In this document: positions 5,745-30,283 of the stretch, piece by piece
How positions within the stretch are numbered: position 1 is the stretch's first letter
How the letters are laid out: each line of letters starts with the position of its first letter
Source of the DNA: Halorientalis persicus
GTDB taxonomy: Archaea > Halobacteriota > Halobacteria > Halobacteriales > Haloarculaceae
Direction of reading: 5' to 3'
DNA: 38,032 bases
Assembly: GCF_900110215.1 (NCBI RefSeq)
Contig: NZ_FOCX01000030.1
Coordinates: forward strand, 1 to 38,032
Notes under the pieces: model-generated
The model's input: the letters and a program-made list of their open reading frames with translations, nothing else
Databases searched by the model: none
What the model was told of the DNA's origin: nothing
Translations under genes and position numbers: made by a program

Positions 5745-8414
5745 ATGTCTGAGCAGGAACAATCTAAGCGGTCGGAGGGTCGTCCTGAGCTTCCTATTGA
5801 GCGTGGCTTCCCGATTGAGCGAGTAAACGAGATCGCTGAGAAGGAGGGCCGAGCAAAACAATGGTATCGCCCTGTCTATACGATGCACAAGTGGTGGGCT
5901 CGGAGGCCAGGATGTCTTTTCCGTGCGATTACGCTCTATTCGCTCCTTGACGAAAACACGACTCTTGACGATGTTGAGGTATACGAGCCTGGCGAAAACA
6001 AGACGCTGGGCAGTAATGGACTAAGTAAAGAAGATCTCATTAATGCTATTGGCGATGTCTCGATGGATGATCCTGAATCGCTGTGGGATTTCTATCCGAA
6101 AGACATCCGTATCAAGAATAAGAAAATCCTCGATCCGTTTATGGGTGGTGGGACTTCGCTTGTAGAAGCCTCCCGATTCGGCGTTGACTCCGTCGGTGTA
6201 GACCTAAATCCAGTTGCGTGGTTCGTTACCAAGAAGGAACTTGATGCTGGCCAGACCGATGTGGCAGAGTTAGAAGCGGCATTTGAGGAGGTTAAAGAAG
6301 ATGTCGCTGACGATATTCTCCAATACTACCAAACTCCTTGTCCGAATGGCGACCACGACGCCGATGTTATGTACAACTTCTGGGTAATGGAGCTTGATTG
6401 TGTTTCCTGTGGTCACACAGTTCCACTCTTTAAGGACTACCGTGTGGCGAAGGGGCGCTTTGAGAACGATGATAAATATAATGTTCTCTGTCCAGACTGT
6501 GGTACGGTTACGCTCGTTGAGGATTGGCAGGAAGAGAGCGAATGTAATGAATGCGGTAATGAATGGAATCCAAAAGAGGGGAACGTGACTCGGGGTGGCT
6601 ATTATAATTGTCCAGACTGTGGACAGAAGGAGTCTATCATCGACGGTATTGCGGATCAAGGAAAACCAGATACTCGGCTTTATGCTGTTGAATATTACTG
6701 TGAGGATTGTGATCAGCAGGGCCGAAGAAAGAGCGAACACAAAGGGTATAAAAAGGCTGGAGCCGCCGACAAAGCGATCTTCGAAGAAGCAAAACGAGAG
6801 TGGGAGACACGAACCGATCTTCACGAATATGTTCCAGATGAAGCAATCCCTGAAGGAGCTATTACAGCAGCCTCCTCAATTAGTGGAAACGATGTATTCC
6901 GATATGGCTATGAAAGGTGGGAAGAAATGTTTAATGAACGTCAACTTCTTAGCTTTTCGAAGCTGCTAAAACGGATTTCAACTCTCCAAAGCCAAGCAGC
7001 TCAAGAGTACCTTCTGCTCGCATTTACAGACGCTCTTCGGACAAACACTATGATGGTCTCATATGACACAGCGTACAACAAAATAGGTGATTTCTTCCGC
7101 ACAAATACATTTGACCCTGCAACCTATCCTGTTGAGAACAACGTTTGGGGCACTAAATTTGGCCGTGGCACGTTCACATCCAGTTGGGATATGGTCAAGA
7201 GGGGGGTTGAGTACGCAAACGCACCAACTGATCGCTACGTCAACAATGGCGAAAGTGTTGAAACAGATGAATTCGCCCAACCAATTGGCCTAAATTCGGA
7301 GGTATATCAGGACGATATGCGAAATATCACCGCTGAAGACGAGTTTGACGCTGTAATAACTGATCCACCATATTATGATAATATCATCTATTCCGAGGTT
7401 GCTGATTACTTCTACGTTTGGCAAAAAATCCTACTTGAAGAAGAATACCCCGGCTTTGACCTCGACAAGACGCCACGAGCAGAATCTATCGTCACAAACC
7501 CCTACCTCGACAAGACTGCAGAGGACTTCGAGCATGAGATGGGTCAAGCACTAGAGGTTATCAACCGAGCACTCAAAGATGATGGAACACTCGCGTTCAC
7601 GTATCATCATAGTGACGAAGAATCCTGGGGTGAACTCCTTGAATCACTCTGTAACAATGATTTCGAAGTGACGGCGACTTACCCAATCAATTCGGACTTG
7701 ATGAAATTCATTGGTGGCGAAGCCGTCTCGTTCGACATTGTTATTGTAGCCCGGCCGACCGAGGAACGGACACCAATCAGTTGGCGTCGTCTCCGTATTG
7801 AAATTCTCAATCGTCTTGAGGAGATCCAAGAGAGCCTTGAGGAACACCGGGATCTTTCTGAAGGTGACATCGGTGTCGTTGAGATGGGTGCTTGCTTCTC
7901 GGAATACTCCAAACATCACGGAGAGGTCCGCCGAAGTGGTGACATCATGACTGCCAAGGAAGCTGTCCAGGAAATTTACGGGATCATCCAAGACAACGCC
8001 CTCGGCGAGCAGGACATCTTCCTGGCGTTACAACGGAATCGTTCGCCTAGCTATAACGACTTCAACAAACTTCTCCGGCGGAGTGAGGCCTCAGAAGAAG
8101 AGATGCGTGAGAAGGCCCTCTTCCGGATGGAGGGTAACGACTTCATCATCGGCGACTGGAGGGATCAAAAGCGTCAGGCCTACGTCCAAGATAAGGTCAC
8201 CGGCGAGAATGGTGATCTGACTGTCTTAGACAAAGCTCACTTCCTGCGTTACCGTTACGAAGAGGACAAATCGACCAAGGAGTACTTAGAGCGCTGGAAT
8301 ACCGACGATCTTCAGGAACTCTGTGAGGGTCTCGCCGAGGCGACGGGAGACGAGACATATCTGAATATGCTTGGTGTCCACAACACCAATTGGGACGAAT
8401 TCACCGACGAGTAG
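5745..8414 (+). CDS. DUF1156 Zn-ribbon DNA methyltransferase, copy 1
   Basis: This is a COG1743-type DNA methylase, predicted to methylate an exocyclic amino group (adenine N6 most likely). The N-terminus carries the DUF1156 signature (LPIERGFPIERVNEIA then MHKWWARRP). The SAM-binding motif I DPFMGGGT is at residues 130-137 and the catalytic DPPYYDN motif at 540-546. Between them lie several CxxC pairs (for example CVSC, CPDC, CNEC, CEDC) forming Zn-ribbons that probably contact DNA. It is a single transcription unit with its own TATA box, about 200 bp before the DUF499 gene. Its closest relative in the window is copy 3 (near-identical N- and C-terminal blocks such as CEGLAEATGDETYL). The middle of the gene is noticeably AT-richer than its ends and neighbours, suggesting mosaic origin. 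Confidence 0.9.
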   Translation: MSEQEQSKRSEGRPELPIERGFPIERVNEIAEKEGRAKQWYRPVYTMHKWWARRPGCLFRAITLYSLLDENTTLDDVEVYEPGENKTLGSNGLSKEDLINAIGDVSMDDPESLWDFYPKDIRIKNKKILDPFMGGGTSLVEASRFGVDSVGVDLNPVAWFVTKKELDAGQTDVAELEAAFEEVKEDVADDILQYYQTPCPNGDHDADVMYNFWVMELDCVSCGHTVPLFKDYRVAKGRFENDDKYNVLCPDCGTVTLVEDWQEESECNECGNEWNPKEGNVTRGGYYNCPDCGQKESIIDGIADQGKPDTRLYAVEYYCEDCDQQGRRKSEHKGYKKAGAADKAIFEEAKREWETRTDLHEYVPDEAIPEGAITAASSISGNDVFRYGYERWEEMFNERQLLSFSKLLKRISTLQSQAAQEYLLLAFTDALRTNTMMVSYDTAYNKIGDFFRTNTFDPATYPVENNVWGTKFGRGTFTSSWDMVKRGVEYANAPTDRYVNNGESVETDEFAQPIGLNSEVYQDDMRNITAEDEFDAVITDPPYYDNIIYSEVADYFYVWQKILLEEEYPGFDLDKTPRAESIVTNPYLDKTAEDFEHEMGQALEVINRALKDDGTLAFTYHHSDEESWGELLESLCNNDFEVTATYPINSDLMKFIGGEAVSFDIVIVARPTEERTPISWRRLRIEILNRLEEIQESLEEHRDLSEGDIGVVEMGACFSEYSKHHGEVRRSGDIMTAKEAVQEIYGIIQDNALGEQDIFLALQRNRSPSYNDFNKLLRRSEASEEEMREKALFRMEGNDFIIGDWRDQKRQAYVQDKVTGENGDLTVLDKAHFLRYRYEEDKSTKEYLERWNTDDLQELCEGLAEATGDETYLNMLGVHNTNWDEFTDE

Positions 8415-8614: not shown

Positions 8615-11600
8615 ATGAGCGCGGAAGGAACTCTCGATACCACAATCGACGACGTGCTGACGCTCAGTCCAGAGCTCACCGAGGGGGATAGCCTCATCAA
8701 GGGTCAGATCCGCCTCTATGATGTCGACAGCGAGGCCGATACGCTGGAATCCGACGCAGAGCGATTCTTCAACCGGACGCTGCTGACCGGTGGGCTGGAG
8801 GACTCCCTGAAGCGACTCCGAGACACTCGTCGGGGCGAGGACAACAACCGCCTCCACGAGATGTACGGTCCGTACGGGACCGGGAAGTCCCACCAGATGG
8901 TCGCGCTGTACCACTGCTTCAACTCGCCCGACGTGGTGGGCGACTGGGCTGATGGTCGTATCGAGGGGCTTGGAGAAGCGCTCCCTGACGACGCGCTCCC
9001 GGTCGTCGTCTCCCTCCAGAAGGAGCAGTACGAGTACCTCTGGGAGCCACTGTTCGAACAGCTGGATTACGAACCGGATGAGGAAGAGTACGACGAGGAG
9101 GGTGGCTACCCGAGCATCGACGTCATCCAGGACGCGGTCGGCGATCGTACCGTCGCGTTCTTCATGGACGAACTCGAGGACTGGTTCGGCTCGCTCAGCG
9201 GTCGCCGGAAAGACGCGAACCGCGGGTTCCTGCAAGCGCTCTTCGAGACGACGTCCCGTCCCAACACGGAGCTGTTCGCATTCGTCTCCGTGCTTCGTGA
9301 GGGGTCTGACGTCCACGATATCCTGTCTCGCGAGCCCGAGCGTGTGCAGGTTAATATGTCCAACCAGGTCGACATTCGGGACGTTCTCCGTCACCGTCTC
9401 GTCGACTCTATCCACGACCGCTCGGCGATGCGCACGCTCGTCGACCAGTACATCGAAGCCTACGCGGACACTGATTATGTCGACCTTCCGGATGGCCTCC
9501 GGGAGGAGATGTACGACACCTACCCGTTCCACCCGATCCTCATCGATTCGCTGAAAACCCGCTACTTCGCGGAGACTGAGTCGGGGGCGACTCGGGGGAT
9601 GCTGTATCTGTTCGCGAAGGTACTCGTCGATCAGTACCAAGATACTGACCTTCTCACGCACGGTGAGGTTGACGCCGTCGAGTACAACGACGAACTCACC
9701 CGCATCAACGTCGAACACTCCCGCCCCGACCGGTGTTACGACGACATCCGGGAACGCCTCGCCGACGCCGATATCACCTACGGCCGACCCATCCTCAGCA
9801 CTGTTCTCATCTACTCGCTCACGCCGGGGCTCGCTGAGGGCGCGACCACCTCCGACATCGTTATCGGGACCTACCACGCCGGCGACCGCATCAACGACAT
9901 CATCGTCGACCTCGAACGTCTCCAAGGCGAAGTCTACCACCTCTGGCGCTCCGACGACCGCTACGTTATCCGTGAGGATGAGAACCCGCGCTCGCTCGTA
10001 AAGAACGCCGCTCGAGACGTCGACGATGAAGACGCGATCGAGCTCGTTGGTGACACCGTCGAAACGCTATTCGGTTCGGGTGCACACGCGGTCGGCTTCA
10101 ACGTCGACGGCGAACTCGAGAACGTCCCTGATAGTCAGAACATCAAAACCGTCGTGAAAAACGGGCCCTGGGATGCTGACAGCGTTGGTGAGATCATCAA
10201 GAATCAGCCTGCCGGTCGACAGTGGCGGAACACGCTCGTGTTCGTCCAGCCCAAGAACGGCAAGACCATCTCGCCCACCTCGCAGCAGGAGAAGTTCCTC
10301 GGGAAGGCCAAGGAGGTCATCGGCGCAGAGATCCGCAAGGCGGACGAGAACCTTGCAGAGGAGATTCGTGAAGAGATCGCAAAGCTCCACGATGAGTACG
10401 AAGACGACCTCCTCGAACGCTTGGAGAGCGCCTACGGGGAAATCATCGACGGCGACGACCTCCTCAACGAGTTCGACTACGCGGCCGAGATGTCGCTGGA
10501 GAACTTTGTCGCCACCGAACCCGTTCTGAACGCCAGCAACATCGCCGCAGCAGCGGAGGCAGATCCCTTCGACCTCCAGCGTCACGTCTGGGACATCGTC
10601 CGCGATCGCCTCGACAACCGCTCCGAGACGACCATCGACGATATCTACGAGCAGTTCCTGATGGACCCGACGTATCCCATTCCGGGGAGCGCGCAGGCGG
10701 TCGTCAACGCCGTCGAAGATGGGCTCGGAGACAAGCCGATCCTCGCCCACGATGGTAGCGGGTTCAAGGACGAACTCCGCGGGCTGAATCAGGACACGGT
10801 GCTCGTTCTGGAGAGCGACGTCGAGAAGTGGTCGACTGAGGAGGTCGAATCCGAACTTCGGGGGCGCTTCGGCGCCGGAACGAAGGAAGTCGACCTGGGA
10901 TCGTTCGAACTCGATCTTCGCCAGCGGACCGACGTGTGGATTCACGACCAAGACCCGGAAGACGCCGTCAAGATGGCTGCCGGGCGGCTGGCAAACGAGG
11001 ATCACTACGTCCTCGTCAGCGGCAGTGAAATCCTCGACAAAGTTCGCTCTGACGCGACGCTCCGAGACGTCTCGGACGCTGAGACGCTCGGAGCAAACGA
11101 GATTCGTGACCGTATCGAGGAGACGGTTGATGCCGCCGGCGAAGCCGATACCAGTCAGGTTCTTACGACCATCCGGAATGACGCTGAGGTCTACCTCCCG
11201 CAAGACGATACCGAGTCCGCATTCCGAAGCGCGGTAAGTGCGCTCCTGGCGGATGGATACAAGCTCAAAACTGGAGGCGACTACGTCAGTACCCTCGGTG
11301 ATCGTGACCCCACGTCCGTCGTCCTCGCGCCGATGGTTCCCGAGGACATTGGCGACCGGATTCTGAACTATATTGGCGACCTCGATGAGGAAGCCACCTT
11401 CCAGGTACAGTCGATTCAGAGTGAATGCGCTGCGGGACAGCCCGAGGCGGCGGTCAAACACTTCCTGCTCGCAAACCTCGGAATGGAGGACCCACACTAC
11501 GTTGTCGGCGCGACTGGCTCAGAGGATCCTGCAGACTGGTTCCCCGGCGCTGGGTTCCGCATCCCGCCGGAGGAGGGCTGGACCTTCGAATACCAAGGCG

Positions 11601-11851
11601 ACAGTCCGGCAGAGATGCGCCAGGAGTGGAACGAATCACACGAATCTGGCTCCGTCTCGTACGGCTCGATTTCATTCAATACCGATGGTGAGGGCGCAGT
11701 GCCTGGCGGTCTCCAAGGGGTCGCTGAGTTCCAACAGGCCCATACGGATCTGCAACTCGAACTCGGACAATCTCACGAGATCGTCGCCGACATTCTGGAG
11801 AACATCCCTGAGTCTGCCACAAGCATCGACATCACCATCCAGTTCGAATGA
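8615..11851 (+). CDS. DUF499 AAA+ ATPase (COG1483), Hma-type ATPase component
   Basis: This is a large P-loop ATPase of the DUF499/COG1483 family, which is repeatedly found beside DUF1156 methylases and SNF2 helicases in archaeal and bacterial defence loci. Walker A GPYGTGKSH starts at residue 85 and Walker B (AFFMDE, D185-E186) follows about 100 residues later, the typical spacing. A helical middle part and a C-terminal part of about 250 residues rich in acidic loops have no motif I can name. The 1078-aa length is usual for the family. It is first in an operon: the second methylase begins 39 bp after its stop. Predicted role: energy-dependent remodelling or target sensing together with the methylase and helicase; the mechanism is not known. 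Confidence 0.88.
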   Translation: MSAEGTLDTTIDDVLTLSPELTEGDSLIKGQIRLYDVDSEADTLESDAERFFNRTLLTGGLEDSLKRLRDTRRGEDNNRLHEMYGPYGTGKSHQMVALYHCFNSPDVVGDWADGRIEGLGEALPDDALPVVVSLQKEQYEYLWEPLFEQLDYEPDEEEYDEEGGYPSIDVIQDAVGDRTVAFFMDELEDWFGSLSGRRKDANRGFLQALFETTSRPNTELFAFVSVLREGSDVHDILSREPERVQVNMSNQVDIRDVLRHRLVDSIHDRSAMRTLVDQYIEAYADTDYVDLPDGLREEMYDTYPFHPILIDSLKTRYFAETESGATRGMLYLFAKVLVDQYQDTDLLTHGEVDAVEYNDELTRINVEHSRPDRCYDDIRERLADADITYGRPILSTVLIYSLTPGLAEGATTSDIVIGTYHAGDRINDIIVDLERLQGEVYHLWRSDDRYVIREDENPRSLVKNAARDVDDEDAIELVGDTVETLFGSGAHAVGFNVDGELENVPDSQNIKTVVKNGPWDADSVGEIIKNQPAGRQWRNTLVFVQPKNGKTISPTSQQEKFLGKAKEVIGAEIRKADENLAEEIREEIAKLHDEYEDDLLERLESAYGEIIDGDDLLNEFDYAAEMSLENFVATEPVLNASNIAAAAEADPFDLQRHVWDIVRDRLDNRSETTIDDIYEQFLMDPTYPIPGSAQAVVNAVEDGLGDKPILAHDGSGFKDELRGLNQDTVLVLESDVEKWSTEEVESELRGRFGAGTKEVDLGSFELDLRQRTDVWIHDQDPEDAVKMAAGRLANEDHYVLVSGSEILDKVRSDATLRDVSDAETLGANEIRDRIEETVDAAGEADTSQVLTTIRNDAEVYLPQDDTESAFRSAVSALLADGYKLKTGGDYVSTLGDRDPTSVVLAPMVPEDIGDRILNYIGDLDEEATFQVQSIQSECAAGQPEAAVKHFLLANLGMEDPHYVVGATGSEDPADWFPGAGFRIPPEEGWTFEYQGDSPAEMRQEWNESHESGSVSYGSISFNTDGEGAVPGGLQGVAEFQQAHTDLQLELGQSHEIVADILENIPESATSIDITIQFE

Positions 11852-11890
11852 CGCGCAGCTTCAAATACGAAGACGGAACCACCAGCTATC

Positions 11891-14524
11891 ATGTCTGACC
11901 CGGACGCGAACTCGCGGGATACGCTCCCTATCGAGCGGGGGTTCCCCATCGAGCAGGTGAACGACCTTGCTGACCGCGAGGGCCGCGCTAAGATGTACTA
12001 CCGACCGCTGTCCACGATGCACAAGTGGTGGGCTAGACGGCTCGGGAGCGTGTTCAGGGCGATCTCGCTGTACTCGTTAGTTGACGATCCTAGTGCTGTC
12101 GAAATCCATAATGCAGACCAGGAAAATCTGAACCTTTCCGATTTCGGCGACGGCGATACAGAAGACACCACCACTGAGGACCTCGCTCAACTCATCGAGT
12201 CGGTCAGTCTCACCGAGCCCGACGCGCTCTGGGAGCTGTATCCGAAAGACGTTCGCGTTGACGGGAAGACCGTCCTTGACCCGTTCATGGGCGGTGGGAC
12301 GAGCCTCATGGAGGCCATCCGATTCGGGGCGGCCGTAACCGGTGTCGACTTGAATCCTGTCGCGTGGTTCATCTCAAAAAAGAGCCTTGAAGCTCACGAG
12401 GTCGATGCCGACGAGCTGCAACAGGCCTTCGACGATGTTCGAGCAACCGTCGCAGACGAACTCCAGTCTCACTATGAGACTACCTGTCCTCACGACGAGA
12501 ACCACGTTGCTGACGTCGTGTATGCGCTCTGGGTACGGAAGCTAGACTGCACTTCCTGTGGCGAGACGGTTCCACTGTTCAAAGATTACCGCGTCGCCAA
12601 CGGTCGCTACGAGGACGACGACAAATACAACGTCTACTGCCCGGATTGTGAATCCGTTTTTCTAACTGACGACTACCAAACCGAGTCCGTTTGTATGGAA
12701 TGTGGCTACGAGTACATCCCGGCGAACGGTCCAGTCTCTCGAGGCGGTAACTACGGATGCCCGTCGTGCGGTCTGCAGTATCCAATCGTCGATGCGATCG
12801 CCGACGGACAGTCATACGCCGAGGACCTCTACGCGATCGAATACTACTGTACGGAGTGTGAGGACGAAGGCAAGGATCGAGCGACGTTCAAGGGCTTCAC
12901 TGCGGCAACTGACAAAGACCGGACTCAGTTCGATCGTGCTAGCGAGGAGTGGCACTCTGCAGAGGAGTTAGATGCGTATATCCCTCAGAGTGAAATCCCT
13001 GAAGGTGCGATCACGGCAGCGTCCGGTATAAATGGAAACGATGTCTTCCGCCACGGCTACGAGACGTGGTCGGACATGTTCAACGATCGCCAGATCTACT
13101 GTCTTTCGACGCTGCTCTCTGCCATCGATGACGTCGAAGATCAGACCGTCAAGGAGTATCTCCTCCTCGCTTTCAGCGACTCTCTGATGTTCCAGAATAA
13201 CTTCGCTCTCTACAATATCTCCGGGACGAAAATAGAGGGGATCTTCAGACAGAACTCCTACCAACCCCAGGTCGAATATGCGGAAAACAACGTCTGGGGA
13301 ACGAGAGCTGGGCGAGGCACGTTCAAGAATACGTGGGAGAAAATCGTCAACGGCGTCGAGTTCGCCCATCAGCCCACGGAGCGGTACCTCGAAGATGGAG
13401 AACTCAAACAGACGGATTCGTTTGAGAACCCGGTCGGTGGCGAATACACACTCCACCAGGGCGATGTCCGGGACGTTGAGCTTGAATCGGAGTATGACGC
13501 CATCATCACTGATCCCCCGTACTACGACAACGTCGTCTATTCGGAGGTCTCAGACTTCTTCTACGTCTGGCAACGGCTGCTTCTCTCGGATGAATACTCC
13601 TGCTTTACCCCCGAAACGACGCCTCGCGAAGAGAGCATCGTCTCGAACCCGGCTATCGACAAGGACGGAGCTACCTTCGAGAGGGAGCTCAAGCAATCGT
13701 TCTCCCGGATGCGGGACGTGCTGAAGGACGACGGCGTACTCACGTTCACGTATCGGCACAGTGGAATCGAGTCCTGGGGGGCGCTCCTCGAGTCTCTGTG
13801 CGACGAAGGATTTGACGTGACTGCGACGTATCCGATCTCGGCCAATCTCAGCGAGTTCGTAATGGGCGACGAACTCTCCTTCAGCGTGATCGTGGTCGCA
13901 CGACCGATGACGGATCGCGACCCGATCAGCTGGGCTGCGCTTCGACGACAGATGTACAGGACCGCGCAGCGAACGGAGGAGGAGATTCAGGAGGGACAAA
14001 CCATCTCCGAAGGCGATATCAGCGTCGTCAAACTCGGACGGTGTTTCCGAGAATATTCCAAACACCACGGCAAGGTCCATCGTGAGGGATCCGTTATGTC
14101 CGCGACTGACGTTGTCGCCGGGATGTACGACATCATCGCTGGTGATGATGGTGTCTCCCCCGACGAAATCTACCTGAGCCTCTTGTCGATGGGAGAGCCC
14201 ACGTTTAACGATGTGAACCGTTTGTGTCGGGGAACTGGAGTCAGCCCAAAGGACCTCCAGGAACGGGCGTTTTTCGACACCACAGATGGCTTCACGTTAT
14301 TGCGGTGGCACGATGAGCAGCGGATGGCTTACCTCCAAGCGAAAGCCCCTGACGAACTCTCTGCTCTCGAACGGGTACAGCTCCTCCGATACGCTGCTGA
14401 TGAGGAGACCAAACCCAGGGAAGAGAGCCGCGAATTGGAGGTCACAGGAGAAATGATGGACGTAGCATCCGAACTTGCGGACATCACTGGGGACGAGACG
14501 TTCCGTCAGATCCTCAGAGACTAA
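11891..14524 (+). CDS. DUF1156 Zn-ribbon DNA methyltransferase, copy 2
   Basis: It has the same architecture as the other two copies: DUF1156 signature (LPIERGFPIEQVND, MHKWWARRLG), motif I DPFMGGGT from residue 130, Zn-ribbon cysteine pairs (CTSC, CPDC, CMEC, CPSC, CTEC), and DPPYYDN from residue 541. It is the most divergent of the three, most clearly in the last 100 residues, and it is GC-rich throughout, like the DUF499 gene with which it forms an operon. This makes it the likeliest cognate methylase of that ATPase. The C-terminal segment VVAGMYDIIAG is echoed by the start of the next small protein. All catalytic motifs are intact. Confidence 0.9.
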   Translation: MSDPDANSRDTLPIERGFPIEQVNDLADREGRAKMYYRPLSTMHKWWARRLGSVFRAISLYSLVDDPSAVEIHNADQENLNLSDFGDGDTEDTTTEDLAQLIESVSLTEPDALWELYPKDVRVDGKTVLDPFMGGGTSLMEAIRFGAAVTGVDLNPVAWFISKKSLEAHEVDADELQQAFDDVRATVADELQSHYETTCPHDENHVADVVYALWVRKLDCTSCGETVPLFKDYRVANGRYEDDDKYNVYCPDCESVFLTDDYQTESVCMECGYEYIPANGPVSRGGNYGCPSCGLQYPIVDAIADGQSYAEDLYAIEYYCTECEDEGKDRATFKGFTAATDKDRTQFDRASEEWHSAEELDAYIPQSEIPEGAITAASGINGNDVFRHGYETWSDMFNDRQIYCLSTLLSAIDDVEDQTVKEYLLLAFSDSLMFQNNFALYNISGTKIEGIFRQNSYQPQVEYAENNVWGTRAGRGTFKNTWEKIVNGVEFAHQPTERYLEDGELKQTDSFENPVGGEYTLHQGDVRDVELESEYDAIITDPPYYDNVVYSEVSDFFYVWQRLLLSDEYSCFTPETTPREESIVSNPAIDKDGATFERELKQSFSRMRDVLKDDGVLTFTYRHSGIESWGALLESLCDEGFDVTATYPISANLSEFVMGDELSFSVIVVARPMTDRDPISWAALRRQMYRTAQRTEEEIQEGQTISEGDISVVKLGRCFREYSKHHGKVHREGSVMSATDVVAGMYDIIAGDDGVSPDEIYLSLLSMGEPTFNDVNRLCRGTGVSPKDLQERAFFDTTDGFTLLRWHDEQRMAYLQAKAPDELSALERVQLLRYAADEETKPREESRELEVTGEMMDVASELADITGDETFRQILRD

Positions 14525-14559: not shown

Positions 14560-14955
14560 ATGAGTGATATCGACGCAGTGGCGGGCATGTACAACATCAT
14601 CGTGAGTGGTGAGCGAGAGTCCGCCGAGTATCGAGTTCCTGTCGAGGAGTTCGTGACGAAGCTCAAGAACCGAGATCTCCCCGACGAGATCTGCGTAGCA
14701 GGTCTCGAAGAAGTCCTTACCGAAGATGAGGACCTCCGCGATCAGCTGGTTTCTGCGATGCGGCAAGAGATGGATTATCTCAACAGCCAGCGCCCGTTAC
14801 CAGCGATTCAGTTCGTCGTCGACGGTGATATCCAAGGTGCCGGTGACTCGTTCGACGTAGAGATCGATGATGAGTTCCACTCCTTGGAGCCAATTTTTGG
14901 TCGGCAAATCAAGAAACGGGATTCCGGATGGCTCGTTGCGCCGTTTCGCGTGTAG
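14560..14955 (+). CDS. Small unknown protein downstream of methylase 2
   Basis: This 131-aa acidic protein is the last gene of the DUF499 operon, 35 bp after methylase 2, and converges with the McrC-like gene with a 14-bp gap. I recognise no domain. Its first 15 residues (IDAVAGMYNIIVSG) resemble the methylase 2 segment TDVVAGMYDIIAG near residue 740, and the matching segment of copies 1 and 3 (EAVQEIYGII, EVVDEIYGII). It may therefore share a small helical module with the methylase, perhaps for complex formation. The C-terminal half has alternating hydrophobic residues suggesting beta strands. Coding status is supported by operon position and frame length. Confidence 0.65.
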   Translation: MSDIDAVAGMYNIIVSGERESAEYRVPVEEFVTKLKNRDLPDEICVAGLEEVLTEDEDLRDQLVSAMRQEMDYLNSQRPLPAIQFVVDGDIQGAGDSFDVEIDDEFHSLEPIFGRQIKKRDSGWLVAPFRV

Positions 14956-14969
14956 CACCCGTCATCGAT

Positions 14970-16769: not shown

Positions 16770-17994
16770 AGGCGCTGACGCCCATCTCGCGTTCCTCAGC
16801 CTCCGCCTGCTGGTTCGCGAGGTCCATAGCGGGGCTAAGGTCGAACGCTTCGAACTGATTGTCGAGCGTCTCGTAGTGACTCGCGAGGCGATTGATCTGG
16901 GGCAGTGCCGCCGTGTTCAGGATGCGAGGCGCAATGTACGTGGCGAAGGCCTGCCCGACTGCGACATCTTCCTCACCTCTGTACTGACCGCCGTCTCCAC
17001 AGGCGTGCTTGAGGAACTGGGTGACGTCCTCGTAGTGCATCGGCCCGAACTCCATAATTCCGTCCTCACCGCTGGTAGTTGTTCCCTCGTTGATCCCCTG
17101 ATGGTGGCTCTCGAAGAGTTCCTGAAGCTTGTCGCGGTCAATATCCACATCGGAGCCGAGTTCTCCGATCCAGCGGTCGAACAGGGAGGCCCGCTCCTCG
17201 TCACCGTAGCGGCTGAGTTCTATCATCGCGAAGCGACGAGTGATCGCATTGTCGAGTTCGTTCACTGTCCGGTCCGACATATTCATCGTACAGATGATCT
17301 TGACGTTGTCGTTGAGCGTGAGCGGATCCCCGTCGTCATTGCGGAAGATAACCTGATCTTCGTCCTCGATAGCGGTGTACAGTGGCCCGAATACCTGGGA
17401 GATGTCTGCCCGGGTGATTTCGTCGATAATGACGCCCCAATTGTCCTGATACTCGTTTGCTTTCTGGATGCCCTGTGAGACGCAGCCTGCTCGCCGATGA
17501 TACTCAATCTCGCCGTCTTTCGTCTCCGGCTGGATACTGCCGGTAATGTCCGCAGGAGTCCATGTTGGCGTCGCGGTGTGGATGGAGTAGTCGATGCACG
17601 CCTCCAGTGCGAGCTGCTTTGCGAAATAGGTCTTTCCGGTGCCGGTCGGACCGTAGAGAACGATTGGCTTCCCGACTTCGATAGCGGTGAGGGCGTTTTT
17701 CTTGACTGTCTCCGGGACGAGTGTCTCGCCCAGATTGTAATTCCGTTGGGCGACGGTCTGTTTGACCTCGAACGGGGTGACATTTGAGGTTAGAAGGGCC
17801 TGTCGAACCTCGTCACGATTTCCAGAGACGCGCCTGTCGATTTCCGCGTCTTCGACGAGATATCGTAATGCGTCTGGGCTAGAGGTGCGGTTTATAAAGT
17901 CAGTCGCAGACGCGCTCGAATTTACGATGAACCCTCTGAATTCCTCTGCCTCCTCGCGGTCGTAGTCCTCGAATTTCGGCGTCCCGCTACTCAT
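16762..17994 (-). CDS. McrB/MoxR-like AAA ATPase of the second McrBC-like pair
   Basis: This is the motor partner of the McrC-like nuclease that follows it with an 8-bp overlap. The AAA_5 domain shows Walker A GPTGTGKT at residues 115-122, Walker B IIDE with D191-E192 followed by TRADISQVFG (the McrB-like DExxR/N-A/G context), the NxxD-type motif MNMSD at 237-241, and an AITRRF segment at about 250-255. Unlike the first McrB here, it has only about 100 residues before the ATPase domain and no room for a large DNA-reading domain, so recognition probably lies in its N-terminal helices or in the enlarged McrC-like partner. A TATA-like box lies 30 bp upstream. Confidence 0.87.
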   Translation of the reverse strand: MSSGTPKFEDYDREEAEEFRGFIVNSSASATDFINRTSSPDALRYLVEDAEIDRRVSGNRDEVRQALLTSNVTPFEVKQTVAQRNYNLGETLVPETVKKNALTAIEVGKPIVLYGPTGTGKTYFAKQLALEACIDYSIHTATPTWTPADITGSIQPETKDGEIEYHRRAGCVSQGIQKANEYQDNWGVIIDEITRADISQVFGPLYTAIEDEDQVIFRNDDGDPLTLNDNVKIICTMNMSDRTVNELDNAITRRFAMIELSRYGDEERASLFDRWIGELGSDVDIDRDKLQELFESHHQGINEGTTTSGEDGIMEFGPMHYEDVTQFLKHACGDGGQYRGEEDVAVGQAFATYIAPRILNTAALPQINRLASHYETLDNQFEAFDLSPAMDLANQQAEAEEREMGVSAYE

Positions 17995-20086: not shown

Positions 20087-22765
20087 ATGTCTCAGGAACA
20101 GCAAGGGCCAGACTCGAGTGAGCGGACGGAGCTTCCGATTGAGCGGGGATTTCCTATTGAGCGAGTGAACGAGATCGCATCTAAAGAAACGACCGGGGGT
20201 GCACGGGAATATTATCGCCCCATCTATTGTATGCATAAGTGGTGGGCCCGCCGAGCAGGGTCAGTTTTCCGCGCTATCTGTCTGTATACGTTGTTAGATG
20301 AAGAGACGGAGTTCGATGTTCGGGATCCTGGTGCGAACGGAAACCTCGACATGTTCACTGAAAGTGACGACATTCGGGAATCCATCAGAGAGATCGATCT
20401 CTCGAATCCTGAGGCCATATGGGACCTCTACTCCAAGGACGTTCGAGTAAGTGATAAGAAGGTTCTTGACCCGTTCATGGGTGGTGGGACATCACTCGGT
20501 GAAGCCTCCCGGTTTGGGGTTGAGTCTACTGGCTACGACATCAACCCAGTAGCGTGGTTTATTAGTAAAAAGGAGATGGAGGCCCACAAGACCGATCCTG
20601 AAGTACTCGAAGACGCATTTCAGGAAATCAAAGATTCTGTCGAGAGCGAAATCAAGCAGTACTACAAAACGTCGTGTCCGAACGGTGACCACGAGACCGA
20701 CGTTATGTATTATTTTTGGGTGAAAGAGATCGATTGCGTCTCCTGCGATGAAACCGTCTCGCTTTTTGAGGATTACCGAGTGGGGAGGGGCCGGTACGAG
20801 AACAAAGGGAAGTACAATGTCTACTGTCCAGAGTGTAACCGAGTCACACTCGTCGATGATTGGCAAAATGAGTGTGAATGTAATCACTGTAATTACGAAT
20901 TCGTCCCCAAAGATGGAAACGTAACTCGAGGTGGGAACTACACCTGTCCGGATTGTGGTCAAAAATACGGCATTAGAGATGCAATTCATGAGCAGGATGG
21001 TGTCAGACAACGTCTATATGCAATTGAATATTACTGCTCTACCTGTGATAGTAAGTCGAATATTGAAAAAGCAAAAATAAAAGGGTATAAATCTGCCAGC
21101 AGTGAAGATAAATCTCTCTTTCATGAAGCTGAAAAAGAATGGCAAACTCGAGAGGATCTGCACAGATATATTCCCGATACGGAAATTCCGGACGGGTGGT
21201 ATACTTCCTCTACGAAGTTTGAAGGCTCAGCACCGGGAGCACATGATATCAAAAAATTCGGATATGAAATGTGGTCAGATATGTATAATGAACGGCAGCT
21301 TCTCTCGCTAAGCAAAATACTGAAAGAAATAGATGGAATTGAGGAACAAAATATCAAAGAATATCTTCTCTTGGCTTTGACAGGTTGTCTCAACCGGAAC
21401 AATATGATGGTTGGTTATAATTATGTCCATAATGGAGCAACAAATATATTCAAATCAAATTCATTCGATCCACCTCAGAGACCACTAGAAAACAACGTAT
21501 GGGGCCTAAAACACGGGACTGGACCGTTCTACCGCAAGTTCGAATTAATAAAAAGAGCAGTCGAATATGCGCACTCACCGACTGATCGATATATCGAAGA
21601 CGGCGAAACCATCGAAACACCTGGATTTGACAAATCCCTCGGCGAAGACACGACCGTAATCTGTGACGACTTGCGGAACATCAATGAAGAGAATGAGTAT
21701 GACGCGGTAATTACTGATCCCCCATATTATGACAACGTCCTATACTCGGAGCTATCAGACTTCTTTTACGTGTGGCAGAAGATACTGCTGGAAGACGAAT
21801 ACGACTGTTTCGGCCCGGATATGACCCCAAGATCCGAGATCGTTGCCAATCCCGCTCAAGACAAAGGGGCTCAAGAGTTCGAAACAGAGCTGCGGGAAGC
21901 CTTTGATGTCGTTCATTCGGCACTAAAGGAAGATGGAGTTCTGACATTCACTTATCATCACAGCGATTCCGAGTCGTGGGGCGAACTGCTCGAAGCACTC
22001 TGCGATTCCGGGTTCGTGGTTACCGCAACATATCCAGTCACAGCTGATCTTCAGAAGCTCACAAAGGGCGAAGCAGTCTCATTTGACATCATCGTTGTAG
22101 CACGACCTGCAACAGATCGAGAACCGATCAGTTGGAACACGCTTAGGCGCAATATCGCACGTACAGCCCAAATTACGCGGGAGCAGCTCGAGACAGAGCG
22201 AGATCTATCTGAAGGCGATATCGGTGTCGTAGAGATGGGAGAATGCTTCTCGGAATATTCGAAACACCACGGTGAAGTTCGAAAGGAGCGAGAGATCATG
22301 TCTGCAAAAGAAGTTGTCGACGAAATCTATGGCATTATTCAGGGGGAGACTGATCTCGGAGAGGTCGACGTTTTCCTGGATCTTCTTAGTGAGCGAAATC
22401 CCACTTATAACGATCTGAATAAACTCTGTCGAGGGACCAATGCGATCCCAGATGAACTCAGAGATATGCACTTGTACTCAATGGACGGTAACGATCTCAT
22501 CTTAGGTACTTGGGATAATGAAAAGCGTCAGGCATACGTTCAAAATAAGGTTCAGGAAGGTAATGATGATCTCACTAATCTAGATAAAGCTCACTTCTTA
22601 CGCTACCGATACGAACAGGGCAAATCAACCAGTGAATATCTCGAACGGTGGGATAGCGATGAACTCACCGACCTCTGCGAGGGGCTGGCTGAAGCAACCG
22701 GCGACGAAACGTATCTACGAATGATTGGTGTCGATACTTCGCTGGCGGAGTTCACGAATAGCTGA
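20087..22765 (+). CDS. DUF1156 Zn-ribbon DNA methyltransferase, copy 3
   Basis: Third paralogue: DUF1156 signature at the N-terminus (LPIERGFPIERVNEIA, MHKWWARRAG), motif I DPFMGGGT from residue 128, Zn-ribbon pairs (CVSC, CPEC, CNHC, CPDC, CSTC) and catalytic DPPYYDN from residue 544. It resembles copy 1 more than copy 2 at both ends (DKAHFLRYRYE, CEGLAEATGDETYL). The central part, roughly 20860-21560, is conspicuously AT-rich (runs such as AAAAGCAAAAATAAAAGGG) against GC-rich flanks, and holds a segment with an insertion relative to copies 1 and 2 (WYTSSTKFEGSAPGAHD). Since the Zn-ribbon/middle region likely sets DNA specificity, the three enzymes may read different sites. It is transcribed alone, upstream of the TBP-like gene. 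Confidence 0.9.
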   Translation: MSQEQQGPDSSERTELPIERGFPIERVNEIASKETTGGAREYYRPIYCMHKWWARRAGSVFRAICLYTLLDEETEFDVRDPGANGNLDMFTESDDIRESIREIDLSNPEAIWDLYSKDVRVSDKKVLDPFMGGGTSLGEASRFGVESTGYDINPVAWFISKKEMEAHKTDPEVLEDAFQEIKDSVESEIKQYYKTSCPNGDHETDVMYYFWVKEIDCVSCDETVSLFEDYRVGRGRYENKGKYNVYCPECNRVTLVDDWQNECECNHCNYEFVPKDGNVTRGGNYTCPDCGQKYGIRDAIHEQDGVRQRLYAIEYYCSTCDSKSNIEKAKIKGYKSASSEDKSLFHEAEKEWQTREDLHRYIPDTEIPDGWYTSSTKFEGSAPGAHDIKKFGYEMWSDMYNERQLLSLSKILKEIDGIEEQNIKEYLLLALTGCLNRNNMMVGYNYVHNGATNIFKSNSFDPPQRPLENNVWGLKHGTGPFYRKFELIKRAVEYAHSPTDRYIEDGETIETPGFDKSLGEDTTVICDDLRNINEENEYDAVITDPPYYDNVLYSELSDFFYVWQKILLEDEYDCFGPDMTPRSEIVANPAQDKGAQEFETELREAFDVVHSALKEDGVLTFTYHHSDSESWGELLEALCDSGFVVTATYPVTADLQKLTKGEAVSFDIIVVARPATDREPISWNTLRRNIARTAQITREQLETERDLSEGDIGVVEMGECFSEYSKHHGEVRKEREIMSAKEVVDEIYGIIQGETDLGEVDVFLDLLSERNPTYNDLNKLCRGTNAIPDELRDMHLYSMDGNDLILGTWDNEKRQAYVQNKVQEGNDDLTNLDKAHFLRYRYEQGKSTSEYLERWDSDELTDLCEGLAEATGDETYLRMIGVDTSLAEFTNS

Positions 22766-22886
22766 TCGAGGTATTGGAACTCGGCGGGGGCAGGAATGTG
22801 ACACTGAATACGATTTCCCCATATTTCGCACCCTCTCTACGTACTGGCTGAATTTCAGGGTGTTTGAATATGCACGAAGTCGCAAT

Positions 22887-22896
22887 CATATTTATG
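22887..22896 (+). promoter_or_regulatory. Possible TATA box of the TBP-like gene
   Basis: CATATTTATG in the 187-bp spacer would place a transcription start about 35 bases before the ATG at 22953. An alternative is read-through from methylase 3. Support is weak. Confidence 0.3.
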
Positions 22897-22952
22897 ACCT
22901 CACCGATGAATAACGTTGCCGAGGGCGCTGCTCCTGAGCTCTGGATATATCT

Positions 22953-23594
22953 ATGACGAATGTCCGAATTACGGAAATAGAAAATGGAGTTCCTCTCCAA
23001 CAGCTAAATCAGGCAGGTATTGAAGTAGTAAACATTGTTGGATCTCTTCGTTTAGAACGCGAATTGGATCTAGAAGAGTTAGCAGACGATTTAGAACATA
23101 CCTCATACCACCCGGAGACATACTCAAGCCTGATATTCCGACCCCCGGAACATAATATCAGTATTCTCACTCCGAGAAGTGGAAAGTTAGCCATTGTGGG
23201 CGCAAAGAGTCCACAGGATCTATTAGAAGGAGCAGATGTATTTCTAAAGAAGCTCGAAAGCCTCGGGGTTCAAATAAATAAAGAGGCAAGTGAAATACTC
23301 GTGCAAAATATCGTAGGGAAGTTTGAGCTCGATGAAGAACTGGACTTATCGGTTATTTCTCTTGGCTTTGGGCTGGAGAGCGTAGAATATGAGCCAGAAC
23401 AGTTTCCGGGGCTGATATATAAGAAAGACGATGAGCCGACAGTCATGCTATTTCGGACTGGAAAAGGAACGATAACCGGGGCCAATTCGTATCGTGAGCT
23501 TCTTAGCCGATATCACTCGTTTCGGGACGAGTTAGCCGATGTAAAGGAGCATATTGACTCCTCAAATAGTCAGTCAATTGGACAAGAGAAGTAA
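22953..23594 (+). CDS. Divergent TATA-binding protein (TBP-like)
   Basis: The protein consists of two direct repeats, residues about 24-106 and 116-195, that match the TBP saddle: VVNIVG/VQNIVG with the conserved Asn (N27, N119), an ELDLEELA/ELDLSVIS helix start, and SGKLAIVGAKS/TGKGTITGANS stirrup strands. In known TBPs each half inserts two Phe side chains into the minor groove. Repeat 2 keeps both (F151 in QFPGLIY, F167 in MLFRTGK). Repeat 1 has lost both (Y57 in TYSSLIF, P74 in LTPRSGK). A 17-residue N-terminal lead and an acidic C-terminal tail flank the core. General haloarchaeal TBPs are about 185 aa; this one is 213. It may be a specialised initiation factor, a repressor-like TBP or a sensor of foreign transcription. 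Assignment is by repeat pattern and motifs. Confidence 0.85.
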   Translation: MTNVRITEIENGVPLQQLNQAGIEVVNIVGSLRLERELDLEELADDLEHTSYHPETYSSLIFRPPEHNISILTPRSGKLAIVGAKSPQDLLEGADVFLKKLESLGVQINKEASEILVQNIVGKFELDEELDLSVISLGFGLESVEYEPEQFPGLIYKKDDEPTVMLFRTGKGTITGANSYRELLSRYHSFRDELADVKEHIDSSNSQSIGQEK

Positions 23595-23641
23595 ATTAAG
23601 TATGTGCTCCAAATATCCATCCCAGACTTAGCTTGCCGCGC

Positions 23642-25399
23642 ATGGAAGAACAAAATCTCGTCGACATCGAGGTCACGCACGATGACCCGGAGAATCTTGT
23701 AGACTCCTATTCCTCAGGAATTGCAGATTTTCCCTTCCACCGGCAGACCGTCGTCGCGAATCGTCTTCTTGCAGGACAGCCCGACACAGAACTTCGTTCA
23801 CTCTCCCGCGTCGACGAGGAGGAGGTCAAACTCCTCGAACATCAGGTCGACGCTGCCCACAGGGCCCTCTTTGAGATGGACGGGAAGGCACTCCTCGCTG
23901 ACGAGGTCGGCCTCGGAAAGACGATCGAGGTCGGTATGATCCTGAAGGAGATGCACTATCGCGAGACCGACGACTCGGTGCTGATCCTCACCCCGGCCCA
24001 GCTGGCCAAACAGTGGCAAGGGGAACTCCTCGAGAAGTTTGGGCTCGAGTTCGTCTGCAACTACGATGATGAGTTCCAGGGATTCGATGCCCACAACTAC
24101 ATCATCGCCAGCATCGATACCGCCAAGAGCGACCGACACCGCGCGACCGTACTCGCTCGTGACTGGGACGTCCTCGTTATGGACGAGGCTCACTACGTGA
24201 AAAACGAGGAGACCGATCGCTACGACCTCATCGACGAGCTCACCTACGATTACGCGTTTTTCCTCACAGCCACGCCCATCCAGAACGAGCTTACCGACCT
24301 CTACAACATCGTCTCCTTGCTGCGGCCCGGCTTGTTCGGCAGTCGGGACACGTTCCATCACTACTTCGTCGACAATGGCCAGGAGACGCTCGTGAACCGG
24401 GACGAGCTACAGCGACGGTTGGGGCAGGTGATGATCCGAAATCGCCGTGAGGAAACGGACATCGACTTCACGGACCGTATTATCGACACGCGGACCTTCG
24501 AGCCGAGCGCAGCGGAGAAAGAGCTCTACGAGGCGGTAACGGAGTACGTGCGAAGCGCGTACAGCCAGGACAGCGGCCAGAAGCTGGTGCTGATGCTGCT
24601 CCAGAAAGAGGTTGTCAGCAGCCCGGCAGCGCTGGAACAAACGATCCTCAAACAGCTCGAGGAACAGAACGAGCTAACGCACCGAGACGAACTCGAAACG
24701 ATCCTCGACAAGATCGACGCGATTGACACGGTCACAAAACAGGAGCGGCTGTTCGATATCGTCGAGGAAGTCCGTGAGACCGTCGATATGGGGCGCGTTA
24801 TCGTGTTCACGCAGTTCCGGGCGACCCAGCGCCAGGTCCTGCAAGCATTAGACGATCGGGGGTATACCACTCACGCGTTCCACGGAGGCCACTCAAGCCA
24901 AGAAAAGGAGGACATCGTGGATCAGTTCCGAGAGGAAGGTGGTGTCCTCGTATCTACGGACGCGATGAACGAGGGTCGCAACCTCCAGTTCTGCAATATT
25001 ATGGTAAACTACGATCTGCCGTGGAACCCGATGAAGGTCGAGCAACGGATCGGACGGATTCACCGGATCGGCCAGAAGCGCAAGGTCTACGTCTTCAACA
25101 TGGGCCTGAAAGGCACTATCGAGGAATACGTACTGGAACGTCTCTACCACAAGATCGATCTCTTCCAACAGACGGTCGGAGAACTGAGCACGATTCTTAC
25201 CCGGCTCGAGGACTCCGGAAAGAGCTTCGAAGACGAGATTTTCGAACGGCTCACCAATGCCGACTCTGAGGTTGAGCTCGAGAACGACTTCGACTCAATG
25301 GCGATCGACCTTGAGGAGCAACAGAACCTCTCACAGAAGGTGGAAGAATTCAACAGCGGCGTCTTCGAGAGTTTCGATCTGGGGGCGGACGATGACTGA
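23642..25399 (+). CDS. SNF2-family DEAD/DEAH helicase, Hma-type helicase component
   Basis: This is an SF2 DNA translocase of the SNF2/HepA type. Numbering from the ATG at 23642, Walker A DEVGLGKT is at 87-94, DEAH at 181-184, the motif III segment FLTATPIQNE follows, and the C-terminal RecA domain has VIVFTQFR and motif VI QRIGRIHRIGQ at 468-478. All core motifs are intact. There is no appended nuclease domain; the tail after residue 500 is helical and acidic. A TTG at 23633 extends the frame by three codons, but the ATG is preferred. It overlaps the following coiled-coil gene by 8 bases and is probably its partner. In the family context such a helicase works with DUF1156 methylase and DUF499 ATPase. 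Confidence 0.9.
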   Translation: MEEQNLVDIEVTHDDPENLVDSYSSGIADFPFHRQTVVANRLLAGQPDTELRSLSRVDEEEVKLLEHQVDAAHRALFEMDGKALLADEVGLGKTIEVGMILKEMHYRETDDSVLILTPAQLAKQWQGELLEKFGLEFVCNYDDEFQGFDAHNYIIASIDTAKSDRHRATVLARDWDVLVMDEAHYVKNEETDRYDLIDELTYDYAFFLTATPIQNELTDLYNIVSLLRPGLFGSRDTFHHYFVDNGQETLVNRDELQRRLGQVMIRNRREETDIDFTDRIIDTRTFEPSAAEKELYEAVTEYVRSAYSQDSGQKLVLMLLQKEVVSSPAALEQTILKQLEEQNELTHRDELETILDKIDAIDTVTKQERLFDIVEEVRETVDMGRVIVFTQFRATQRQVLQALDDRGYTTHAFHGGHSSQEKEDIVDQFREEGGVLVSTDAMNEGRNLQFCNIMVNYDLPWNPMKVEQRIGRIHRIGQKRKVYVFNMGLKGTIEEYVLERLYHKIDLFQQTVGELSTILTRLEDSGKSFEDEIFERLTNADSEVELENDFDSMAIDLEEQQNLSQKVEEFNSGVFESFDLGADDD

Positions 25400-26897: not shown

Positions 26898-26905
26898 ACA
26901 TTAAT
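26898..26905 (+). promoter_or_regulatory. Possible TATA box of the AddB/AddA operon
   Basis: ACATTAAT is centred about 29 bp before the ATG at 26931. If used, the transcript would begin near 26928, which supports 26931 over the in-frame ATG at 26904 as the start. Confidence 0.4.
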
Positions 26906-26930
26906 GCCTCGCTCGGGTAACGGATGGAGT

Positions 26931-29900
26931 ATGTCTCGCCGGCTGTTACTTACTGGGTCTGATTTACCTGAGCTTGAATCACAGGCGTTCGATATTCTTA
27001 GTGAGAGCGTGGGAACACAGCCAGAAAGTATTCTCTACGTTGGTCAGCCGGAACACCCTGAAGACGCAACGAAAGATCGCTGGATGGAGTTTGGCCCCTC
27101 AGCAGGACTCCGTGTCGACACGTTGGATGATCTTGCTTCACAGTGCTATGAACAGGATCAGTACAAGGGCCGGGTAACTCACGTTGACCGACCGCTCCTC
27201 TTCCGACTCGTCGAGCTTGGTGTTGAAGGGATCTCATCATCTACGAATCCACTCAACACCGGCGACCAGTTTCCCAGAGCAGGGCTCGTCCAAGAAGCCG
27301 AGACGCTTTTCACCGAACTGGAGTTCGCTGGACTGCTCTCACCGGACGCAATGCGGCAGCGTCTCGAACAGGAGGGTGTGGGCGACCGCGCGGACTACGT
27401 CGCCGAACTGGCGGAAGAGATCGAATCTGCCCGACAGACACTCCTTGCTGATGAACTCCCGGAAACATACCGTACCGAGCGAATGCACCACGCCACGACG
27501 GCAGAAACATCGCTCACAGACGTATTCCCCTCAGTCGAGGCCGTTGTTCTCAGTGGGTTCACGCGATTCGACGTTCTAGAAGTAGACTTCCTCGAACGAA
27601 TCGTCGACACCTGGCCGGCGATCGCTCTCCTCCCCAAGCAGATAGACGAAGACTCGGCCCCTGGTGTTGATAGAGGCGCCAAACAAGCGCTAGAGACGTA
27701 TTCCGACCTGGACTTCGTTCGACAGCACCACGATGAGCCTGCCTCGTCAACTCTCGAAGCGCGACGGCGCATCACTCGCAGTCTCTATCGGCATCCCCGC
27801 CAGTCGCCGTCAACCAGCGACATCAACGGGGGAGCGCTGGATCTGACGCTCACCGAACCGGAAACTGTTCCCGACGAGATCCGAACCGTCGCCCGAGATA
27901 TCCGGAGTCGCATCGCGACAGGAACGTCGGCCGACGATATCGGTGTCGTCCTCACGAGTCCGGTTCAATACGCTGACCAAGTACGGGAAGCTTTCGAGAT
28001 GTACGAACTCCCGTTCAATCTACAAACCGAGATTCCTCTTTCCGAAACAGCCCTCGGCGATGTCGTCCAGACAGTCTGCCAACTCGCACAGGAACCTCGT
28101 AGCATCGACACACTCCTCGATCTCCTCACGAACCCACTAGTCACCATTACGCAAACGGGAGAGAACCTCGATTACCACAAACTCGCCCGGGTGGCAGCTA
28201 GGGCAGAGACAAATCGGCTTGAATCGACTCTCGAACACGTTGACGACAGTCTCGCGGCAACGGTTACCTCCCTGACTCGGGATGCAGCCGCTCTGTCAGA
28301 GGTATCACTCGAGGAACTCCCCGGCCAACTCGATGCCCTCCTTGAGCGTCTCGGCGTCTCAGCCGCACTAGAAGGTGAACAAGAACTCTCATCTCCACTT
28401 CGGGACCGTGAACTGCGTGCTCGTGACCGTCTCGACCGGATCCTTGAGACCCTCGCCCTTACAACACCGTTGGCGGGCCCCGAAATCGGTGATAGCGTTG
28501 ATCGGCTTGAGCGCGCGCTCCATGGCGTCTCGATCCAGCAGAACACACGGCCACCCGAGGAGAGCGTCGTTGTCTGTAGTCTCGCCGAAGCCACCCTTCG
28601 GGAGTTTGAACAGGTATACGTTCTCGGGGTGACGACGACACATTTCCCCTCAGATCCGGAGCGAACCGCTTTCACACGACCCATCTACGAGTCTCATCCC
28701 GACTTCGAGCAGACAGATGTCTCTGCAGAGGCACGGTATCACTTGAGCGTACTCCTCGGGAGTACAGCATCAGTTCATCTCTCCATCCCCCAGCAGAGTG
28801 TTAGTGGTGAACCGCACGTCGAAGCAGATATCCTGACCGAATTTCGGCGGCTTGTCGATCTCTCGGAGGTGACGATTGAGCCAGCTGACAGCGAGCCAGG
28901 CTGCCAAGAAGACGTGCAGCGGGCAGTCGGCGACGTGCTTCCCGAGACATCCGAAGCACGAGTCCACGACCTACTCACTGAAGCAGTCGAAGCTGGTTCG
29001 TTTAGCACCACCCAACAGGCCCGTGTTCAGGCTGGTATTGTTTGTGCCGCGGCACGAGCAGGTCCCGAACTGACGCCCTACGATGGCCAGCTCACAGAAG
29101 AGACCGTCTCCCAGATTCACGATACGCTCGACCGCGAGCCGTACAGTCCGAGTCGGTTGGAGACATATGCTGCGTGTGGGTTCAAGTATTACATGCGCCG
29201 TGTTCTCGGCATCGAAGCACCGGATCGCTTAACCCGGGAACCCGACGCGAGCGACCGCGGCTCGTACATCCACGACGTGCTCGAACACTACTACCTGTCG
29301 TTACAGTCAGGGGGCAGCGATCCAGTTCACCCAGGTGGCGACTTCGAAACGCGACAACAACAGCTCCTCGACATTGCCCTCAGCCGGCTTGACGAAGCAT
29401 TCGACGACCGCGCCCAGACAGCGTTCCAAGAAGAATGGCTGACCTCCGTACTCGCGGGACTCGGAACTCCGGACACCAATCCATACTATGGACCACATGA
29501 GACGCAGGACGGTCGTCCTGTTGCGCGAGGGCTATTCTATCGCTTCCTCGACCACGAGGCGGACGAGCCCGCAAAGACGACTGCTCGACCGACGTGGTTC
29601 GAAGGCCGGATCGGTAATCCCTACGACGCAGGCACGCCACTCAGCGACGACCCCGCAGAGATTGAGACACCACACGGCTCGGTCCCCATTCATGGACTCA
29701 TCGACCGCGTCGAGACGGTCCCTGGAACAGACCCAACACAGGTTGTTGTTCGGGATTACAAAACTGGAAGCTCAATCCCCAGCGAAAGTGAGGCGCTGAG
29801 CGGGCTGAAATTCCAACTGCAGCTGTACGCGTTGATGGCCGAAGAGGCACTCGACGATGTCGAAGTAGTCGGTGGCGCGTACTACCAGGTCTCGCCTCCG

Positions 29901-30281: not shown

Positions 30282-30283
30282 CG

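Follow-up and report, generated by a model that had tools for sequence, protein, structure and literature searches.

Half-armed TATA-binding proteins are associated with DNA-methylation-based defence loci in haloarchaea and may act as locus regulators

Within the window, as the whole 38,032-nucleotide stretch of Halorientalis persicus DNA analysed here is called (contig NZ_FOCX01000030.1), a cluster of defence genes includes an intact open reading frame (22953..23594, + strand, ATG start, 213 aa) for a TATA-binding protein (TBP) with a disarmed first repeat. TBP is normally a general gene-reading factor. Proteins with this kind of loss lie beside defence genes far more often than complete TBPs: among TBPs found by TBP searches, and with reference genes taken solely from the window and one BREX-5 locus, a defence gene occurs within 6 kb of 29 of the 34 TBPs that lack both repeat-1 phenylalanines, compared with 0/96 for TBPs that retain all four (four-Phe TBPs). 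The formal p-value, 4e-24, overstates the evidence because many of the sequences are close relatives and the counts are uncorrected for relatedness; the association covers at least four kinds of systems and requires about ten context changes on the tree. Our favoured, though tentative, reading is that half-armed TBPs (half-TBPs) are optional, exchangeable components of DNA-methylation-based defence loci, in which they may serve as dedicated regulators that still engage TFB.

The two-repeat TBP fold proposed in the first-pass annotation is borne out by Pfam, phmmer, AlphaFold and Foldseek alike. The Pfam TBP family matches the open reading frame with E=2.6e-36 and covers both repeats, phmmer aligns the protein with Pyrococcus TBP (1pcz) across residues 19-183 (E=4.7e-27), the best solved relatives being archaeal TBPs, and the AlphaFold model, for which 19 relatives served as input, forms a saddle (mean pLDDT 94, pTM 0.86). 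When this model was searched with Foldseek, the 44 significant PDB matches were TBPs or TBP-containing chains, with archaeal TBPs at the top. With two repeats in a predicted saddle, the protein falls within the TBP family.

The window protein departs from a canonical housekeeping TBP, which has two intercalating phenylalanines per repeat, in repeat 1 (residues 23-105; 23019..23267, +). Alignment to Pyrococcus TBP places Y57 (codon 23121..23123, +) and P74 (codon 23172..23174, +) at the first and second intercalating positions of this repeat, and much of its DNA-facing surface is altered beyond the phenylalanine pair (for example, T82 to V), while N27 is kept. The DNA-facing surface of repeat 2 (residues 115-195; 23295..23537, +; Pfam and alignment) is near-canonical: F151 and F167 (the latter encoded at 23451..23453, +) align with the phenylalanine pair of Pyrococcus repeat 2, and N119 is kept, so that the residues originally singled out in both halves were correctly placed. 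F151 forms part of an EYEPEQFPG loop (residues 145-153; 23385..23411, +), assigned as the TFB-binding stirrup by its conservation; TFB is contacted by two glutamates of the C-terminal stirrup loop of TBP (PMC7221094), and this pair is present in the window protein as E147 and E149 within EPEQF. In the alignment, the EPEQFPG loop is present in all 9 disarmed TBPs of clade A and in 33-34 of the 34 from clade B, and across the disarmed family repeat 2 is almost invariant while repeat 1 is altered at several DNA-facing positions as well. Given the armed repeat 2, the kept TFB loop and the altered repeat 1, one half of the protein seems capable of kinking DNA and engaging TFB, and the other half does not. 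The window gene may thus encode a functional half-armed TBP, with a repeat 2 that could kink DNA and bind TFB and a repeat 1 that could not kink DNA in the normal way. Three further TBP genes are present in the host genome, namely a four-Phe housekeeping copy, another four-Phe copy and a half-armed copy (Y/Y at the two intercalating positions) that adjoins a methyltransferase and an AddAB-like pair.

Loss of the N-terminal phenylalanine pair in TbpC-like haloarchaeal TBPs was published by Becker et al. in 2014; that paper leaves relaxed selection open, describes other sequences that lack the C-terminal pair only, and mentions neither phage nor restriction (PMC4230888). The window TBP is similar to these TbpC-like proteins (haloarchaeal, two-repeat, often plasmid-borne, with the N-terminal pair lost and the C-terminal pair kept; PMC4230888) but belongs to a separate sub-clade with patterns Y/P, Y/T, H/P and S/P instead of mostly Y/Y, and shares at most 54% identity with any relative found. 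In one tree all disarmed TBPs are joined at 99/92, the window protein lying in sub-clade A and Halobacterium TbpC in B, while in a larger tree with more rows, including one-Phe forms, and with long branches, a single clade is borderline rejected (p-AU 0.046).

The dN/dS ratio is 0.11 for repeat 1 and 0.087 for repeat 2 among operon-linked TbpC orthologues, and 0.085 and 0.092, respectively, in a close clade-A pair. Such strong purifying selection in both repeats of the relatives (dN/dS about 0.1) makes decay unlikely, and simple decay is accordingly disfavoured, in agreement with the original proposal that an asymmetric change had been selected; the window copy is too distant from its nearest relative for dS, so that selection on it is deduced from the relatives and the intact frame. 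Also hard to explain by decay is the complementary phenylalanine loss in the partner genes of two operons, each of which encodes two TBPs, of patterns YY/FF and FF/SP (L277, 7980-8609 with 11491-12075, - strand; L280, 2791-3369 with 6301-6858, + strand). In both operons the inner TBP, with phenylalanines in repeat 1 and S/P in repeat 2, lies between the methylase and the helicase, and the outer TBP has Y/Y followed by F/F.

The TBP gene lies, as was initially noted, between methylase 3, an HmaB-like DUF1156 DNA methyltransferase (20087..22765, +), and an SNF2 helicase (HmaA/BrxH/DrmD-like; 23633..25399, +, alternative start ATG at 23642), both identified by domain and PADLOC scans. The surrounding cluster comprises three DUF1156 methylases (the others being MT1, 5745..8414, +, and methyltransferase 2, 11891..14524, +), an HmaC-like DUF499 ATPase (8615..11851, +) and the SNF2 helicase (Hma-like according to PADLOC), together with two McrBC-like pairs, an AAA/DUF4143 protein and AddAB-like nuclease-helicase genes; the PADLOC scan gave no match for the TBP. 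The clustering of DUF1156 methylases, a DUF499 ATPase and an SNF2 helicase is that of Hma (PADLOC) and of the Type-1 BREX-related DUF499 systems (PMC12839542), from which the window differs in having three methylases, two McrBC-like pairs, a TBP and a short SNF2 helicase. In 79% of the Type-1 BREX-related members the helicase carries a fused C-terminal PD-(D/E)XK nuclease (PMC12839542), whereas the window helicase (588 aa) contains SNF2 and Helicase_C domains only and the PD-(D/E)XK proteins are separate and encoded downstream.

Several further features of the cluster were observed. Positions 14560-17994 hold a small ORF together with a convergent McrC/McrB-like pair; both recur beside the DUF499 and methylase genes of nearly every related cluster (G038, G084, G088, G123, G026, G009, G047), which suggests that they are a fixed part of the window's Hma-like system. 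An AddB/AddA-like nuclease-helicase pair occupies 26904-34117, and similar pairs follow TBPs in L227, L265, L268 and L270. A 314-aa protein of unknown family (4699-5643, - strand) is found beside methylase 1 in most related clusters, and a separate BREX-5 locus of the host genome (L199, contig C93) is without a TBP.

Comparison with a sister species (G076), whose cluster shares about 96% identity with that of the window along most of its extent, illustrates the exchangeability of the TBP. The TBP-bearing segment (22738..23640, +) is absent there, with 112 bp in its place, and a different half-armed TBP (repeat 1 R/Y, repeat 2 F/F) lies between the homologue of the 4699-5643 gene and methylase 1, within the other stretch where the two species do not match; the two half-TBPs thus appear, from their sequences and positions, to have been recruited independently. 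Methylase 3 differs from its G076 counterpart mainly in its second part (21050-22737, 81% DNA identity, with 21050-21271 unaligned), just before the TBP segment, as if specificity and the TBP had been swapped together. Half-armed TBPs are present in 2/12 related Hma-like clusters and absent from the other 10; with this count, and with the G076 cluster lacking a TBP at the window site, the idea of a constant Hma component was rejected. In one related cluster (G047), a four-Phe TBP is encoded roughly 2 kb away from the McrBC pair.

A single-query scan of genome contigs with the window TBP alone gave no matches. The closest relative of the window TBP (G074, 54% identity) is encoded in a BREX-5 locus, with pglX on one side and pglZ on the other, and relatives in G412, G156 and G057 lie between brxHII and pglZ, also in BREX-5; in the window itself, no PglZ, PglX or BrxC was identified. 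In a search that started from PglZ, TBPs were found in 10/63 BREX-5(-like) loci, in several different slots and in all ten cases with neither repeat-1 phenylalanine, a frequency at which TBP was rejected as a constant part of BREX-5. A profile of half-armed TBPs was also run against 391 haloarchaeal genomes, and the best 20 loci examined all proved to be complete or partial operons of a methyltransferase, a BrxHII/DrmD-like helicase and a TBP, or BREX-5, although the ranking is not independent, as the profile included members of such operons (the neighbour genes were outside it). On plasmids of Halobacterium salinarum, Halorubrum lacusprofundi, Halorientalis and Natronomonas, the TBP start overlaps the stop of the SNF2 helicase gene by 4 bp, behind a methyltransferase, so that the two genes are translationally coupled. 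A type-1 BREX of Haloarcula halophila has a TBP gene between its pglX and pglZ genes, and the deposited annotation of Halococcus and Halorarius BREX-5 places a 'TATA-box-binding protein C' inside the locus.

In the 29/34 count, the neighbours of half-armed TBPs are BREX-5, BREX-1, Hma/BREX-related or methyltransferase-SNF2 helicase genes. The defence association anticipated by the first-pass annotation extends well beyond the window, but its expectation of DUF1156/DUF499/SNF2 surroundings stood only in part: the homologues do occupy defence loci, mostly BREX-5 and methyltransferase-SNF2 operons, and only two were found in DUF1156/DUF499 clusters. Of the five TBPs that fall outside the 29/34 count, four have another methyltransferase or restriction gene nearby by other evidence; the sole exception, G023, has no such gene and is found near genes for a GHKL ATPase and a Hypoth_ymh protein. 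A viral origin of half-TBPs was rejected, their IMG/VR relatives being almost all four-Phe TBPs. A contig of the viral collection (L379:5998-6543) carries, 17 bp behind a methyltransferase, a Y/Y half-TBP interrupted by a stop codon in frame, and is possibly a plasmid or island fragment.

A TBP encoded in a defence operon is also a feature of TOTE and TALON (Aravind et al., 2022, cited in PMC12458937). These systems have TPR-CSD or OB proteins, and TALON, which is bacterial, combines a NERD nuclease with a YprA helicase; no TPR-CSD, OB component, NERD nuclease or YprA helicase was found among the window proteins scanned. The initial impression that a dedicated defence-locus TBP had not been described therefore needs qualification, since TBPs in bacterial defence operons and the N-terminal phenylalanine loss were both known. 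A literature search, with subscription papers mostly outside it, found no paper linking half-TBPs to BREX or Hma, and a published BREX survey does not mention TBP; what is added here is the link to defence, the test for selection and the finding of complementary pairs. TBP paralogues with altered DNA-contacting residues include the eukaryotic TLF/TRF2, and Mot1 is an SNF2-family ATPase that acts on TBP. Compared with Mot1, the window SNF2 helicase has no detected extra TBP-binding region and bears no sequence-level sign of action on TBP.

As a possible dedicated regulator of its locus, the half-TBP would use its armed half to engage TFB and TATA-like DNA and would determine, probably in competition with the housekeeping TBP, how much product the methylase and restriction genes yield. 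In this role it would be an archaeal counterpart of restriction-modification controller proteins; that it works through TFB, that it regulates and in which direction it does so are our inferences. Three points favour this reading: no part of half-TBPs is better kept than the TFB loop; the one neighbour common to the different systems is a methyltransferase, whose dosage restriction systems must control; and the module can be missing or swapped, as is often true of regulators. Counting against it, most BREX-5 and Hma clusters are without a TBP and so do not need one, and the MT1 TATA box is the same whether or not the cluster of a relative includes a TBP. Deletion of tbpC in Halobacterium NRC-1 also had no apparent phenotype, the part of that study available reporting no virus challenge (PMC2121645), and the tbpC transcript went undetected in another strain (PMC4230888).

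The analysis revealed no promoter element confined to loci that carry a TBP. A palindrome, (T/C)AGTCTAAGTAAAGACTA followed by TAT, is observed about 50 bp before a 63-aa ORF (AbrB/MazE-like by eye, without a Pfam match) that opens the methyltransferase-helicase-TBP operon, for example at L226:2494-2514, L227:2608-2628, L264:685-705 and others, where the surrounding upstream DNA has diverged. The palindrome TAGTCT-N6-AGACTA, which precedes a TATA-like stretch upstream of the methyltransferase-helicase-TBP operons, has 9 matches in the window at <=3 mismatches against 11.4 expected by chance; it is not enriched and so provides no evidence for the window locus.

The main rival to the regulator, which we consider rather unlikely, is that the half-TBP is a DNA-binding subunit of a defence complex with the methylase or the SNF2 helicase, aiding loading, scanning or DNA discrimination with no role in transcription, presumably as in bacterial TOTE and TALON. 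The translational coupling to the SNF2 helicase gene, the position of the TBP beside SNF2/BrxHII in the window and in three BREX-5 loci, the presence of TBPs in bacterial TALON and TOTE, and the two operons with complementary half-TBPs, suggestive of an assembly, would all fit a subunit. A pure DNA-binding subunit would, however, have no need of the almost perfectly kept TFB-binding loop, several TBP-bearing loci are without a nearby SNF2 gene (BREX-1 and the BREX variants L216-L218), and the presence of the TBP is optional. More speculatively, and improbably on present evidence, half-TBPs might constitute a transcription-machinery arm of archaeal methylation immunity, which would rely on TFB to recognise promoters, or initiation complexes as they assemble, on invading DNA, and would bring the SNF2 helicase or methylase to them, with complementary pairs reading the two ends of the TATA element.

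A further improbable alternative is a dominant-negative factor that becomes abundant in infection, occupies TFB and TATA boxes and stops viral (or all) transcription as a backup arm. An armed, TFB-competent half joined to a disarmed one is how such a competitor would be expected to look, and a tbpC transcript was undetected in another strain during laboratory growth, with no virus challenge reported in the available part of the paper (PMC4230888), as would fit an infection-induced factor; yet in related loci the gene is the last in an operon with the methylase and helicase, with which co-production is expected. It is quite unlikely that half-TBPs are hitch-hikers, that is, spare copies gathered with defence genes on plasmids and islands, for which phenylalanine loss would be functionless decay and the association a matter of island location. 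Many copies are indeed plasmid-borne, some copies or neighbours are broken (stops in G057, a split helicase in L279, and L379), and the tbpC knock-out showed no apparent phenotype. However, four-Phe TBPs carried by the same kinds of plasmid lack defence genes as neighbours (0/5 of those sampled on plasmids, 0/96 in total), both repeats evolve under the constraint described above, the overlap with the helicase gene is conserved across genera, and the sister clusters acquired their TBPs separately. Least probable is an alternative initiation factor driving defence genes only, from special TATA boxes, as the first-pass annotation had entertained: although multiple TBP-TFB pairs have been proposed to select Halobacterium promoters (PMC2121645), the shared MT1 TATA box speaks against such a factor and the TBP-free loci must be expressed too.

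Whether as regulators or otherwise, half-TBPs provide a testable answer to the published puzzle of why so many haloarchaeal TBPs lack the phenylalanines in one of their halves, and of whether such proteins are dead: they are selected, and nearly always tied to methylation-based defence. They would add to BREX and related systems a component that standard defence libraries have missed, as illustrated by the lack of a PADLOC match, and would suggest several recruitments of a general transcription factor into the immunity of archaea.
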